From positions 62,001 through 126,000 of the forward strand of contig JALWDJ010000030.1 of the NCBI GenBank assembly GCA_027014605.1: a stretch of DNA of 64,000 nucleotides. Reading direction: 5' to 3'. The stretch comes from Campylobacteraceae bacterium. Lineage in GTDB: Bacteria > Campylobacterota > Campylobacteria > Campylobacterales > Sulfurovaceae. Made by a program: the position numbers and the translations under genes. The notes beneath the pieces are model-generated. The model was not told the DNA's origin. It was given only the letters and a program-made list of their open reading frames with translations, and did no database searches. This document shows positions 57,684 through 63,824 of the stretch, piece by piece; positions within the stretch are counted from its first letter, which is position 1, and every line of letters starts with the position of its first letter.

Positions 57684-57778
57684 TAAGTATTTATTGAAAT
57701 AACAATTAAAATTTATTCTTATTTAAAAACTATTATGTTATTATTGTGTTAATATATTTAAACATAAAGGTAATTGTT

Positions 57779-58402
57779 ATGACAGATGAAAATTCAACTA
57801 AAGAACAAAAGTCTGCTATTGCTGAAAAAAATATTAATATTAAAATGATATTAGGTATAATACTTATTATTCTAATTAGTGTTGGAACTTATCTCTATCT
57901 ATCAAAATATAAATTATTTTCTATTCATTTTACATCAAATCGTAATTTTATTTTTAAAACAGCTCGAAATAGAGAGTTTCATATAGAAGCATCTAAAAAT
58001 AGAATATTAATTGAGGAATTAAAGGGTAAAATAGTTTTCTTGAAGGTTTTTAGTTGGAGTTGTCACTATTGTCAAAGAGAGATACCAGAATTGATTAAAT
58101 TAAAAAATAAATTTAATAATGCTTTTGATACTTTAGCTATTGAATCTCAACACCATTCAGATAGAGAAAATTTAGATTTTATTGAAAAATATCATGTTAA
58201 TTATAATATTATTAATGGGGATAAACAGTCTGCATTTTTAGACTATTTAAAGAAGGAGTATAAGTGGAATGGTGTTATACCATTAACAGTTGTAATTGAT
58301 GCTAAGGGTAGAGTTTTAGCATTTGAAGTTGGATATAAATCTTATAGTTTAACAACTCTTCTTAGAACAACACTAAAACAGCTTACTACCGTAGCTCAAT
58401 AA
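57779..58402 (+). CDS. Membrane-anchored thioredoxin-like protein (TlpA/ResA type)
   Basis: 207 aa. One helix (about 24-42, MILGIILIILISVGTYLYL) anchors a periplasmic thioredoxin domain with redox motif SWSCHYCQREIPELIKLK near residue 90 and a cis-Pro in GVIPLTVVIDAKG near 163. The start at 57779 has AAAGG 8 nt upstream; a longer reading from 57746 lacks a site. CHYC differs from the usual CxPC by Tyr before the second Cys, which should raise reducing power. It heads a co-directional group (LysM, rhodanese-like, PilJ), 27 nt before the next gene. Confidence 0.83.
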   Translation: MTDENSTKEQKSAIAEKNINIKMILGIILIILISVGTYLYLSKYKLFSIHFTSNRNFIFKTARNREFHIEASKNRILIEELKGKIVFLKVFSWSCHYCQREIPELIKLKNKFNNAFDTLAIESQHHSDRENLDFIEKYHVNYNIINGDKQSAFLDYLKKEYKWNGVIPLTVVIDAKGRVLAFEVGYKSYSLTTLLRTTLKQLTTVAQ

Positions 58403-58429
58403 AGTCATAAAGGAGAAAGGAGATTAAAA

Positions 58430-59308
58430 ATGAGAAAAGAGATATACTATATATCTTTAATATCTATTTCTATATTTTTTATAGGTTGTGGAGATAATGA
58501 TAAAACAGTTGCTATTAATAATATAGAAAAGAGTATTAATAAAAAATCTACAACAGTTGGTTGTGGGAAAAATGGAAATAATAGTTCAAATGGAGAGTGC
58601 AATCAAAATAGAGACTCTGCGGAGTTTATTTTAAATGTTTTAGCTAAAGATAAAGAGCTTAAAGATAATAATAGATATGTTGATGGAGGTATAGAAAGAA
58701 ACTCTTTATTGGATAATACTACAAAAGAGATACATAAAAAGAGTAAATTAAAAGAGGGTTTAATAGAATTAGTTGATAAAGTTGATAATTCAAAAGATGT
58801 GAAGAAAAAAAAATTAGAGGATTTTATTAATAGTATTGATGAGGTAGAGACAAATGATAATGTGGAGGATTTTAAAAAAATTTCTGTAATAAAAGAGGAA
58901 CTTAATAATTTAGTAGAGTTGGGTAGTAGAGATTTAAAATCAAAAGATATTAAAAAAGAGTTAGAGAGTTTAATAAAAGATGTAACAGAGTCTAAAAAGA
59001 GTTTGATTGATACACAAAAGAGTCTTATTGAATTGGTTAAAAGTGCTGAGAAGAAAAATACTATATCTGCTAAAAAATTTGCAAGTGCAATTATTAAAGA
59101 TGTAAAGAATAAAAAAATTGCTATTGTAGAAGAGAATGATAAATATTTTGTTATAAAAGTACAAAAAGGAGATAATTTATCTATTTTAGCAAAAAGATAC
59201 TATAACGATAAGAAAAAATATAGATTAATATATGAGGCAAATAGAGATAAGATAAATTCAAACTATGAGATATTTCCAAATACTAAATTAATAATACCAA
59301 AAATTTAA
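58430..59308 (+). CDS. LysM-domain lipoprotein
   Basis: 292-aa predicted lipoprotein: signal IYYISLISISIFFIGC with lipobox FIGC (Cys near residue 20). A Lys/Asp/Glu/Asn-rich helical middle (about 90-225) of coiled-coil character is followed by one C-terminal LysM domain: YFVIKVQKGDNLSILAKRYYNDKKKYRLIYEANRDKI...FPNTKLIIPKI. LysM binds peptidoglycan, so the protein likely tethers a membrane to the wall or positions partners in the periplasm. A second Cys pair (VGCGKNGNNSSNGECNQ) lies near residues 43-60. GGAG sites precede it and the next gene, 15 nt away. Confidence 0.82.
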   Translation: MRKEIYYISLISISIFFIGCGDNDKTVAINNIEKSINKKSTTVGCGKNGNNSSNGECNQNRDSAEFILNVLAKDKELKDNNRYVDGGIERNSLLDNTTKEIHKKSKLKEGLIELVDKVDNSKDVKKKKLEDFINSIDEVETNDNVEDFKKISVIKEELNNLVELGSRDLKSKDIKKELESLIKDVTESKKSLIDTQKSLIELVKSAEKKNTISAKKFASAIIKDVKNKKIAIVEENDKYFVIKVQKGDNLSILAKRYYNDKKKYRLIYEANRDKINSNYEIFPNTKLIIPKI

Positions 59309-59323
59309 ACAAGGAGAGTATAA

Positions 59324-59932
59324 ATGAAAAAAAAGATTAATTTGGGTTTACTACTATTAAGTAGTACTTTAATAGCTGGAGATGTTAATATTACAAAAAA
59401 TTTAAAATCTATAACTATTAAAGATGGTGATAAAAAGATTAAAATAGAGAGAATACAAGATACAAAACATAGATTAACTTCAAGTTTTACAAAAACAAGT
59501 AGAGAGTGTCCTCCATATTGTGTTCAACCCATGAATATAGGTAAGGTTAAAACTATTGGAGAGCTTGAGTTATTAAAATATATTAAGCAGATGCAAGATG
59601 AAGATAGTAATATGCTATTGATTGATGCGAGGACTAGAGATTGGTATGCAGGTGGAAGTATTCCTGGGTCTATTAATCTTCCTTTTACAATGTTAAAAAA
59701 GAATAGTAGATATTTGCCAAAAATTCTTAAACTATTAGGTGCTGAAAAGATTGGTACTAAATGGGATTTTAGTAGAGTTCCTGAAATGATTATATATAGT
59801 AATGGTATTTGGGATGCACAAGCAACAGAGGCTATTAAATCTCTTATTTCACTTGGTTGTCCTGAAGACAAAATTCTATACTATCGTGGAGGTATGCAGA
59901 ATTGGTATATACTTGGGTTAACAACTAAATAG
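59324..59932 (+). CDS. Exported rhodanese-like protein lacking the active-site cysteine
   Basis: 202 aa with a signal peptide (about 1-19) and a rhodanese fold: LLIDARTRDWYAGGSIPGSINLPF near residue 103, then EMIIYSNGIWDAQATEAIKSLISLG near 149 and ILYYRGGMQNWYILGL at the end. In active rhodaneses the loop after the IxxY strand starts with the catalytic Cys; here it is Ser (YSNG), so sulfur transfer by the usual route is unlikely. A separate CPPYC pair lies near residues 62-66, before the domain. Sits between the LysM lipoprotein and the PilJ protein. Confidence 0.82.
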   Translation: MKKKINLGLLLLSSTLIAGDVNITKNLKSITIKDGDKKIKIERIQDTKHRLTSSFTKTSRECPPYCVQPMNIGKVKTIGELELLKYIKQMQDEDSNMLLIDARTRDWYAGGSIPGSINLPFTMLKKNSRYLPKILKLLGAEKIGTKWDFSRVPEMIIYSNGIWDAQATEAIKSLISLGCPEDKILYYRGGMQNWYILGLTTK

Positions 59933-59950
59933 AGAGATAGGGGGTAGAAT

Positions 59951-60859
59951 ATGTTAGTAAAAAAAATATCTATTTTACTTATATTAGGAGTTAGTTTTAA
60001 TTATGCAAAAAACTCTCTAATAAGTGGATTAACTAGTATTGTAGAGGAAGTAGAGGCTAAAAAAGCAGAAACTAAAAAAGTTTTAAATTATGCTTTTAAA
60101 CAGAGAATGAGAACTCAATGGATAGCAAGAGATGCACTATTAATCTCTATTGGATTTAATAGTGATTATTATCAAAAAGAGATATTGGAAAATGCTAATA
60201 ATTTTAATGAAAATTTAAATAAATTAATGAATAGTAAAAAGGATATAGATAAAGCTATAAGAGATAATAAAGATTTTGCTCAAAAGATAAAAGATATAAA
60301 TATCACATGGATAACATTTTATGATAATGTAAAAAAACTCTCTAAAAATCCTAAAGATAGAAAATCTTTGGAGTATATTGGAAAAAATAATATTAATCTT
60401 TTAAATGAAATTGAATATATTATTACCCATTTTATGAAATCTTGTCAGAGTAGTGATAAGTTGGAAGCTTCTATGGCACATATAAAAACTATGCTATATA
60501 CACAAGTTGGAAAACCTAGAATGTATATCAATAAGATAGTAAAAGATAGACTCTTAATAAGAGAAAATATTAATAAAAAAGATGCAGAAAAAGATTTAGA
60601 TAACAGCATAAAAGCTATGGATAAGTTAATGAAAGCGCTAAAAGATGGAGATAAAGATTTAGAGCTTGATGGTACTGAAGACAGAGCTATTTTAGAGAAA
60701 CTTTCTATTAGTCAAAATATATGGGATAGAGTAAAATCTTTGGTATTAAAGAAAAAATTAACAGATAAAGAGTTAGAAAGTATGATTAAAGATAATGAGG
60801 AGTTTATTAAAGCACAAGGTGAGGTTGTAAAGCTTACAAGAACATCAAATGATAATTAG
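59951..60859 (+). CDS. Exported protein with two PilJ-type sensor units
   Basis: 302 aa with a signal peptide (about 1-19) and otherwise helical. Two PilJ/NarX-type units are visible: FKQRMRTQWIARDALLI at residues 49-65 and QVGKPRMYINKIVKDRLLI at about 185-203, the latter followed by KLMKALKDGDKDLELDG. In NarX and PilJ these helices form the ligand-binding periplasmic bundle. Here there is no transmembrane segment after it and no kinase or chemotaxis output. 18 nt after the rhodanese-like gene; an intrinsic-terminator-like hairpin follows. It may be a periplasmic ligand-binding accessory. Confidence 0.8.
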   Translation: MLVKKISILLILGVSFNYAKNSLISGLTSIVEEVEAKKAETKKVLNYAFKQRMRTQWIARDALLISIGFNSDYYQKEILENANNFNENLNKLMNSKKDIDKAIRDNKDFAQKIKDINITWITFYDNVKKLSKNPKDRKSLEYIGKNNINLLNEIEYIITHFMKSCQSSDKLEASMAHIKTMLYTQVGKPRMYINKIVKDRLLIRENINKKDAEKDLDNSIKAMDKLMKALKDGDKDLELDGTEDRAILEKLSISQNIWDRVKSLVLKKKLTDKELESMIKDNEEFIKAQGEVVKLTRTSNDN

Positions 60860-60884
60860 AAGAGAGTAAAATTTTCTCTCTTTT
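60860..60884 (+). terminator. Candidate intrinsic terminator after the PilJ gene
   Basis: AAGAGAG at 60860-60866 pairs exactly with CTCTCTT at 60876-60882 around a nine-base A/T loop, and the stem runs into TTTT. It starts directly after the stop codon, so it would end the thioredoxin-LysM-rhodanese-PilJ transcript. Confidence 0.65.
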
Positions 60885-60932
60885 ATAATTCATTTCAGGG
60901 CTTTTTTTCAGAAATTATGATATATTTTTTAA

Positions 60933-61739
60933 ATGGTATTAAAAATAAAGACTATTTTAAAAGATTATTATATTTTTATAAGGGATTTTGTTAAAGCTTT
61001 TTTTGATGATAAACTAAGCTATTACTCTGCAAGTTTAAGTTTTTATACTCTATTCTCTATAGTACCACTTTTAATAATTATATTATCTATTTTAACACAT
61101 CTGCCTATATTTGATAGTATTTATAAAAATATAGAGGCTATTATTTTTGCTAATCTTATGCCTACTAATTCAAAAGAGATACTAACCTATATAAATAGCT
61201 TTGTTAAAAACTCTGGGAAATTGGGTATTGTTGGTGTTATATATATTTTATTTACATCTATGATGTTTTTTAAAAACTATGACTATATTGTTAATGATAT
61301 ATTTGAGTCTAAACCAAGAGGTTTTTGGTCATCGTTATCTATATATTGGACGCTTATTACATTAACACCTATTATGTTAGTTTTATCTTTTTATCTATCT
61401 ATGCAGATGCAATTGCTTTTAAATAAGAATAGTTTAACATCATGGATAGAGATTATTACAATATTACCGTTTACTATTATATGGCTAATATTTTTTATTA
61501 CATATAAAATCTCTGCAAATAGAGAGGTATCCAATAGTTCAGCACTAATAAGCTCCTTTATAACATCTTTAGTTTGGTATTTAGCAAAGATTGGATTTAT
61601 CTTTTATGTTATTCATAATAAGACATACTTAAGCATATATGGAAGTCTTAGTATTTTACTCTTTTTCTTTTTATGGATATATATATCATGGGGTATTTTT
61701 CTATATGGATTAAAATTTTGTTATATATTAATTAGATAG
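60933..61739 (+). CDS. YihY/BrkB family inner-membrane protein
   Basis: 268 aa with about six membrane helices. SYYSASLSFYTLFSIVPLLIIILSI near residues 28-52 is the family signature (xAaaLaYytlLSLvPll), and the C-terminal ISIYGSLSILLFFFLWIYISWGIFLYGLKF segment also matches. Once called ribonuclease BN, this family is now viewed as membrane proteins of uncertain role, perhaps in lipid transport. The ATG has no clear ribosome site. Confidence 0.83.
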   Translation: MVLKIKTILKDYYIFIRDFVKAFFDDKLSYYSASLSFYTLFSIVPLLIIILSILTHLPIFDSIYKNIEAIIFANLMPTNSKEILTYINSFVKNSGKLGIVGVIYILFTSMMFFKNYDYIVNDIFESKPRGFWSSLSIYWTLITLTPIMLVLSFYLSMQMQLLLNKNSLTSWIEIITILPFTIIWLIFFITYKISANREVSNSSALISSFITSLVWYLAKIGFIFYVIHNKTYLSIYGSLSILLFFFLWIYISWGIFLYGLKFCYILIR

Positions 61740-61932: not shown

Positions 61933-62036
61933 GCCTCTTTTAGACCTATGCAATAGCATTGGTGGACAACGGGTCAGGATGGGGACATAGCAGCCCACCC
62001 ACCTTTGCTGTGTGCCGTAGGTATCTGGAAGAGGTT
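61933..62036 (+). ncRNA. ffs: Signal recognition particle RNA (4.5S-type)
   Basis: RNA scaffold that binds Ffh for co-translational targeting. The conserved domain IV tip is visible: GGGTCAGG, then a three-base stem ATG/CAT closing a GGGA tetraloop, then AGCAGCCC; this matches the universal GGUCAGG...AGCAGCC internal loop. The ends pair as a long rod: CCTCTTTTAGACCTA near 61934 with TAGGTATCTGGAAGAGG near 62018. Length about 100 nt fits the small bacterial type. Ends are approximate. The open frame passing through this RNA is not a real N-terminal extension of the next gene. Confidence 0.9.
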
Positions 62037-62147: not shown

Positions 62148-63820
62148 ATGAGACAATCTTTAGCACTTTTAATTACCCTATTAATATTATTTACCTCTTT
62201 ACTATTTGGATTATCAGATAGAGAGTTAGCTATATCTATTAATTTATCTGGAAAACAGAGAATGCTTACTCAAAAGATGACAAAAGAGGCACTTCTTATT
62301 CGTTCAAATATAGATAAAAAAGTTAATATAGATAGATTAAAAGAGAGTAGCAGACTGTTTAACAAGACATTAAAAGGCTTAATAGATGGTGATAAATCAC
62401 TAAAATTAGTATCTATAGAAGATAATAATATACAAAAAGAGCTTAAAAAGATTGAAAAATTATGGAAACCTTTTCATAGTGAAATAGAGAATGTAATATT
62501 TAATAGAGCAACAGATAATACTTATAAACTATTAGAAAAAAATAATATTCCTCTTTTAAATGAGATGAATATAGCTGTTAATATGTATACATTAGAGAAG
62601 AGAGGAGAAAATAAATTTAAATTGGCAAATGATATTAATCTTGCTGGAAAACAGAGAATGTTAACTCAAAAGATGGCTAAAGATTTACTTTTTATAAAAA
62701 ATGGTTTTAAAAAGGAATATTATATATCAGATTTTAAAAAATCTCAAAAACTTTTTACTAAGATACTTAATGGTCTATTTAATGGGGATAAAAAGTTAAA
62801 CTTAGAAGGTACGAAGATATTACAAATTGTAAAGCAGTTAAGAGTTGTTGATAAACTATGGATTAATCTCCAACCTATATTAAAAAAATCACTTAATGGA
62901 AAAGATATTAAAAGTGCTATAGATGGACTAGATAATATATTAATTGAGATGAATAGGGCTGTTTTATTATATACTAAAGCATTTAATCGCCAAAAGCAGA
63001 GATTAGAACTCTCATATATTATAAATAGTTTTATTAATAAAAATAATCAGTTAAAAAGACTTGTTAATCTATCTGGAAAACAGAGAATGTTAATTCAGAG
63101 AATGGCAAAATTATCTCTTCTAATTTCATCTAATATTGATAAAAAAGAGAACATTAAAAGGCTTATTAAATTTTCATCTCTATATAATCAGACTCTAAAA
63201 GCTTTTAGAGATGGAGATAGAGAGTTAAATTGTATTCCTCTTAAGAGTAAATTGATAGATGAACAAATTGCTGTTATAGAAAAAAAATGGAAACCTTTTT
63301 ATAAAAATATTAAAAATATTATTAATCAAAAAGATGGGAGAGGTAAATCACTTAGATTTATTATAGATAATAATGAAGAGCTTTTAGAAGTATCTAATGA
63401 GTTGGTAAAGAGATATGAAAAATCAAATAGGTCTCAAAATTATCTTGATAAAACAAGACTTAGAATTGTAAATGTAGCAGGTAGAGAGAGAATGTTAACT
63501 CAAAAAATGACAAAAGAGAAACTTCTTATATTAAATGGTGATAATAAATATAAATCCAAACTACAAAAGACAATAAAACTTTTTAATGACTCTTTAAATG
63601 TTTTAATTAGTGGTGATAGTAATCAAACTATAGTAAAACCTACAAATAAAAAAATTAGAGAGCAGTTAGCAAAAGTATTATCTATTTGGATGAAATTAAA
63701 ACCTCTCTATCTAAAGGATAATTTATCATCTAAAGAGATGAATATTATTATTAAAAAGAACCCAGTTTTATTATATGAGATGAATAAAATGGTTAAAATG
63801 TCAGAGGTTGAAGTTGAATA

Positions 63821-63824
<4 letters not shown>
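62148..63824 (+). CDS. Protein of four tandem PilJ-type sensor units
   Basis: 558 aa. I start at the ATG with AAGGAG nine bases upstream, giving an N-terminal membrane or signal helix (about 4-21). The rest is four repeats, each opening with a variant of NLSGKQRMLTQKMTKEALLI at about residues 32, 164, 307 and 442, and carrying a LxxLxxGD element about 35-40 residues on. These correspond to the NarX/PilJ periplasmic ligand-binding bundle. No HAMP, kinase, cyclase or chemotaxis domain follows; the chain ends after the fourth unit. It is probably exported or periplasmically anchored. A hairpin after the stop separates it from proB. Confidence 0.82.

Follow-up and report, generated by a model that had tools for sequence, protein, structure and literature searches.

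A window of 64,000 nucleotides, the whole stretch of DNA analyzed here, was taken from a Campylobacteraceae bacterium (contig JALWDJ010000030.1 of assembly GCA_027014605.1, positions 62,001 to 126,000; G000:C30:62001-126000 in our numbering), whose assembly totals 1.98 Mb in 97 contigs. Four genes lie in close succession on its forward strand at 57779-60859, encoding a thioredoxin-family protein (Trx), a LysM lipoprotein, a rhodanese-like pseudoenzyme and a protein made only of PilJ units, and an open reading frame (ORF) check verified the positions reported in a first-pass annotation, with intergenic gaps of 27, 15 and 18 nt. This gene set is real, recurring and conserved among relatives, and we infer that it may encode an envelope assembly tethered to peptidoglycan.

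The Trx gene (57779..58402) starts at ATG, with GTG at 57746 as a possible alternative start, and encodes an N-terminal transmembrane helix and a CHYC motif (Cys95/Cys98). Downstream are the genes for a lipoprotein with an FIGC lipobox (Cys20) and a LysM domain at residues 243-290 (58430..59308), the exported rhodanese (59324..59932) and an exported protein with two PilJ units (59951..60859), each preceded by a good Shine-Dalgarno sequence. The first-pass annotation had described four exported proteins, but the Trx is membrane-anchored rather than freely exported. A 10-bp hairpin ends the unit on the same strand (60857..60885; -10.5 kcal/mol, z -3.1), with an equally good structure in only 1 of 200 shuffled sequences. 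Its earlier description as terminator-like agrees with this stability but not with its weak U tract, consisting of TTTTA only, and a terminator scan called no site. A promoter scan returned fewer sites than shuffled sequences did, which is uninformative in such AT-rich DNA.

Profile searches supported the assignment of the first two proteins. The Trx matched Pfam AhpC-TSA over the cut-off (41.2 bits) and has both the fold and the CXXC motif of the AhpC/TSA-Trx superfamily. In its membrane anchor, fold and CXXC it resembles the TlpA/ResA thiol-disulfide oxidoreductases, but it fell far under the NCBIfam equivalog cut-offs for ResA (43.8 of 170 bits) and TlpA (35.2 of 230 bits), and its operon partner is a pseudo-rhodanese. 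The LysM domain of the lipoprotein scored 31.6 bits against a Pfam cut-off of 20.9, which fits the wall-tethered assembly envisaged at first pass.

The third protein scored 48.3 bits against Pfam Rhodanese, over the cut-off, and its AlphaFold model (pLDDT 80) contains a rhodanese domain that matches rhodaneses in the PDB, plus an extra N-terminal beta hairpin. Inspection of the active site verified that Ser159 stands where active relatives have Cys and that a separate CPPYC pair (a CX3C motif at 62-66, Cys62/Cys66) is present; Asp164 occupies the position of the second Cys of the family. The protein had been called Cys-less, which is true of the catalytic position but not of the chain as a whole, since Cys62, Cys66 and Cys179 are present. 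Its two nearest paralogues have Gly or Asp at the catalytic position. The window copy shares the rhodanese fold and export with periplasmic single-domain rhodaneses such as PspE and Sox-associated proteins, and its active relatives have FCNGxWC, but Ser159, the beta hairpin, CPPYC and the PilJ and LysM partners set it apart from them.

The PilJ protein had been described as having sensor units and no output, and this was borne out: it contains two PilJ units (Pfam PF13675, 47.1 bits; cut-off 26.6) and no output domain. A second PilJ-only gene just downstream (62148..63824, forward strand; TTG at 61959 as a longer alternative start), absent from the earlier account, encodes four units (190.2 bits). 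Nothing but PilJ units was recognized in either protein, and both lack the transmembrane and cytoplasmic signaling domain of a methyl-accepting chemotaxis protein (MCP). Most PilJ units carry an AGKQRMLTQ-type motif (G-x-x-R-M) equivalent to G58, R61 and M62 of McpN, the nitrate chemoreceptor of Pseudomonas aeruginosa. R61 of McpN forms two hydrogen bonds with nitrate, which G58 and M62 also contact (PMC6381276). Every unit keeps the R61-equivalent Arg, four in the large protein and two in the small one (QRM, Arg52; PRM, Arg190); the G58 equivalent is replaced in the first unit of the small protein. One unit from the small protein's model superposed on the McpN ligand-binding domain (PDB 6GCV) with a template modeling (TM) score of 0.82 at 1.6 A; a fold search with the whole-chain model gave no match below E 0.001, the McpN match being per unit only. 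The window proteins thus share with McpN the PF13675 family, the four-helix bundle and G-x-x-R-M with its nitrate-binding Arg, but they differ in having two or four tandem units and a signal peptide without transmembrane signaling or MCP domains. The earlier suggestion of ligand sensing is plausible in light of this conserved Arg, any ligand binding by these units being putative.

Two tandem PilJ units also make up the periplasmic region of P. aeruginosa PilJ (PDB 7ZJR, 8WDF; profile match E 7e-19). That protein is the chemoreceptor of the Chp/type IV pilus pathway, whereas the window set lacks a receptor, a CheA-type gene and a pilus gene. A role in type IV pili or Chp chemotaxis was rejected, as receptor or pilus genes were not recognised at the module loci. 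In the source genome and its nearest relative, another four-unit PilJ gene was seen directly behind a gene for a 609-aa DUF7897 protein (L046:1220-4829; L139).

The Trx-LysM-rhodanese-PilJ order is identical in three further genomes (loci L039, the same record as L097, L040 and L041), whose rhodaneses are 85 %, 70 % and 66 % identical to the window copy, respectively, and likewise have Ser at the catalytic position. The flanks of L097 match the window (TamA/TamB and BrkB/PilJ), but L040 and L041 have a different upstream flank and L041 a different downstream flank too; L040 ends inside the PilJ gene. Because the four genes keep their order despite these changed flanks, the unit holds together while its surroundings vary. 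The BrkB/YihY-family membrane protein gene between the two PilJ genes of the window (60933..61739, forward strand), which is followed by a gap of ~400 nt, is not next to the unit in L041 and is therefore probably outside the module.

We then surveyed 150 genomes of the order, calling module-type (CPPxC-type) rhodaneses by tblastn at > about 150 bits and full four-unit PilJ proteins at > 400 bits. Module-type rhodaneses were found in 17 genomes, 16 of which also encode the four-unit PilJ protein, compared with 0 of the 133 others (Fisher p about 1e-20, without correction for relatedness). The two genes are neighbors in 15 of these 16 genomes, and in the exception (G011) they are on different short contigs. 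In relatives, the rhodanese is thus paired chiefly with the four-unit PilJ protein, and a LysM protein is encoded at nearly all rhodanese-PilJ loci, commonly in the orders rhodA–PilJ×4–rhodB–LysM, rhodA–PilJ×4–LysM–rhodB and rhod–LysM–PilJ×4. The module occurs in five family-level groups (f1, f6, f11, f18, f22). The first-pass annotation had called for such a survey and had named lack of a conserved neighborhood as the outcome that would count against it; instead, both the four-gene unit and the wider rhodanese-PilJ-LysM set are conserved in relatives. It had also been unable to match the genes to a described system, in agreement with our literature search, which found no paper joining a rhodanese with a PilJ domain or LysM in these bacteria. 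Distribution beyond the phylum was covered by plasmid records and one narrow single-sequence rhodanese scan of genome contigs; the scan returned only three close loci, and the plasmid records contained no four-unit PilJ protein. Alphaproteobacterial plasmid homologues of the rhodanese adjoin other genes and have no bearing on the module.

Many of the relatives' loci carry a pair of rhodaneses, one with and one without the catalytic Cys. The first member of most pairs shows Asp or Ser in place of the catalytic Cys and no longer has CPPxC, which survives at two loci; the second has FCNGxWC or FCNGxWD plus CPPFC. A maximum-likelihood tree separated a clade A of D/S copies (15 rows, support 99/99), a clade B of mostly Cys copies (18 rows, 98/93) and a clade containing the window copy (8 rows, 100/99), with Sox-associated and orphan rhodaneses outside all three. 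Every member of the window clade is non-catalytic (Ser, Gly or Asp) and keeps CPPYC or CPPFC, showing that catalytic loss is fixed within it. On Salipiger and Hoeflea plasmids, stand-alone homologues have FCNGxWCGQS together with CPDFC or CPPFC, and a Thioclava plasmid homologue has the active-site Cys and no CPPxC. These sequences suggest an ancestral catalytic form from which the window form was derived. Because CPPxC is also present in stand-alone homologues with an intact active site, it did not arise as a substitute for the catalytic Cys that was lost. As side observations, the active-site Cys is intact in the alphaproteobacterial stand-alone plasmid homologues (L167:5971-6561, L168:5938-6540, L169:6013-6588), and the Thioclava gene has DUF302, DoxX and DsrE-family genes as neighbors.

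The loci of two related families, f6 and f18, point to the cell wall. Most genomes of the order encode an M23 endopeptidase right next to a short bactofilin, in a csd1-ccmA-like arrangement; in Helicobacter pylori, csd1 and ccmA are neighboring genes with overlapping ORFs (PMC9507126). In six f6 and f18 genomes (G138, G127, G115, G042, G095, G119), the module is flanked by a longer bactofilin on one side and an M23 peptidase on the other, and in two others (G069, G131) it is beside a bactofilin. In total, a bactofilin directly adjoins the set at 7 or 8 loci, with an M23 peptidase downstream at 6. The LysM protein at bactofilin-adjacent loci is bitopic, and its cytoplasmic end carries the motif [VI]E[EQH][DE][FY]xxY, present at 7 of 7 such loci with a readable LysM gene and at 0 of 8 others. 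This arrangement resembles the Csd5-CcmA-Csd1 system of H. pylori, in which Csd5 spans the membrane and binds the wall outside and bactofilin inside (PMC9507126). The relatives (c2 cluster) share its layout of a cytoplasmic tail, one transmembrane segment and a periplasmic wall-binding domain, but LysM replaces SH3, and the H. pylori system has nothing equivalent to the PilJ and rhodanese proteins. The window LysM protein lacks the Csd5-type architecture, the window version being wholly extracytoplasmic with no bactofilin adjacent. Several f6 loci also have an extra gene, for a DHHA1-like protein, that separates the LysM gene from the M23 peptidase (L056:1100-2032, L047:4011-4949, L112:6429-7421; one copy weak, E 0.02).

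Taken with the gene content, this context leads us to favor, tentatively, an envelope assembly of PilJ and pseudo-rhodanese proteins that is tethered to peptidoglycan and acts on cell-wall machinery. The four genes would belong to a wider recurring set of PilJ-only rods, rhodanese-like proteins (one or two) and a LysM anchor, the last being in the window version a lipoprotein that would attach the complex to the wall. The PilJ proteins, with two or four units, would form periplasmic helical-bundle rods that bind a small nitrate- or nitrite-like anion via the conserved Arg motif. The window rhodanese would have no part in sulfur transfer and would instead be a protein- or ligand-binding partner, and the neighboring membrane-anchored CHYC Trx would perhaps keep its CPPYC pair in a single redox state. 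The output would most likely be local control of the cell-wall or cell-shape machinery, because the two related families insert the set between bactofilin and M23 endopeptidase together with a bitopic LysM protein, which, like H. pylori Csd5, could make contacts on both sides of the membrane. Other paralogue loci of the source genome likewise adjoin envelope genes, namely Tol-Pal-type genes and an SLT_2 transglycosylase.

Several points weigh against this proposal. The window genome has no bactofilin near the set and no Csd1-like M23 match passing 1e-30, and its LysM protein is a lipoprotein without a cytoplasmic tail. The cytoplasmic motif was defined after viewing the sequences and its carriers are related, the co-occurrence counts carry no phylogenetic correction, and synteny with envelope genes is common generally. 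The redox step, first proposed as the CHYC Trx acting on CPPYC, has circumstantial support. A same-family membrane-anchored CXXC Trx adjoins two of the three non-catalytic-clade rhodaneses of the source genome as well as those of L040 and L041, but none is beside the third or, save one distant gene, beside active-type copies.

The strongest rival is a role as a ligand-binding adaptor, which we consider unlikely: the PilJ-only and pseudo-rhodanese proteins would bind a ligand and present it to a membrane receptor encoded elsewhere, such as a NIT-domain histidine kinase or a GGDEF/EAL protein, with the tether serving only for positioning. PilJ folds are sensor domains in both McpN and PilJ, and paralogous loci place related genes beside signaling genes. 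The rhodanese family has five copies in the source genome, where one operon (contig C29, L044:4074-7297) encodes a GGDEF/EAL protein with an N-terminal membrane region, a window-type Trx and a pseudo-rhodanese, making a cyclic di-GMP output possible for this Trx/pseudo-rhodanese pair. Beside a second sox cluster of the same genome (C41, L155:3536-7342) are genes for a hybrid histidine kinase with a NIT domain and for its small exported partner, and at L143 (6869-13316) and L144 genes for three exported two-unit PilJ-only proteins precede a homologous kinase. However, these NIT-kinase loci lack a rhodanese, and neither the window unit nor most module loci have an adjoining receptor gene. Two further paralogue loci of the source genome are a rhod–LysM–rhod cluster behind Tol-Pal-type genes (C69) and a locus (C94, L042:5386-8761) encoding a pseudo-rhodanese with Gly at the catalytic position, a PBP-like protein, an SLT_2 transglycosylase and a divergent bitopic LysM protein; together with the C29 operon, they are consistent with an envelope theme and also with signaling.

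Alternatively, the set could store, carry or transfer periplasmic sulfane sulfur during sulfur oxidation, with the PilJ and LysM proteins as scaffolds, an idea we regard as improbable. Clade B copies combine the active-site Cys with CPPFC, the alphaproteobacterial stand-alone homologues carry both motifs, and a paralogous rhodanese with intact CNGYWC is found inside soxCDXYZA-soxB operons. This same-family protein (CNGYWCGQT, without CPPxC) is encoded between soxA and soxB, after one small unassigned gene, in large sox operons of one family-level group (L117:8078-8731 and homologues L118-L120, L122, L123, L125, L126). However, the window unit is not within a sox operon, the catalytic Cys is missing from the window copy and from both of its close paralogues, and module rhodaneses form clades separate from the Sox ones. 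SoxB was not enriched, occurring in 6 of the 17 module genomes and 38 of the 133 others (p 0.58), so the module does not track thiosulfate oxidation; a Sox link, which the paralogue in these Arcobacter-type operons had made attractive, was dropped as the main explanation on this result. Nitrate respiration was likewise set aside as a specific partner, since the distribution of NapA (16 of 17 module genomes, 100 of 133 others, p 0.12) is uninformative, being compatible but not diagnostic. Finally, these could be unrelated envelope genes that share an operon for expression, which we judge very unlikely. In favor of this, the genes of the set are not always in the same order and only some loci include Trx. 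Against it, a shared function seems needed to account for co-occurrence in 16 of 17 versus 0 of 133 genomes and for genes that stay adjacent in several family groups even where their order and flanks have changed.

A more specific form of the wall-tethered assembly, rather unlikely as a whole, would be a so far undescribed trans-envelope system of Campylobacterota. Its tandem PilJ rods would detect nitrate or a similar anion and, by way of the rhodanese/pseudo-rhodanese pair and a LysM linker, control bactofilin-guided peptidoglycan remodeling. The window unit would then be a fully extracytoplasmic, thioredoxin-coupled offshoot with a non-catalytic rhodanese. In the literature we found no role assigned to extracytoplasmic pseudo-rhodaneses paired with active ones, or to PilJ units without a receptor body. 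By linking the two with wall anchoring, and in certain families with a bactofilin–endopeptidase cell-shape locus, this conserved set would offer a concrete place to test whether respiratory anions such as nitrate, nitrite and sulfur oxyanions act directly on envelope construction.

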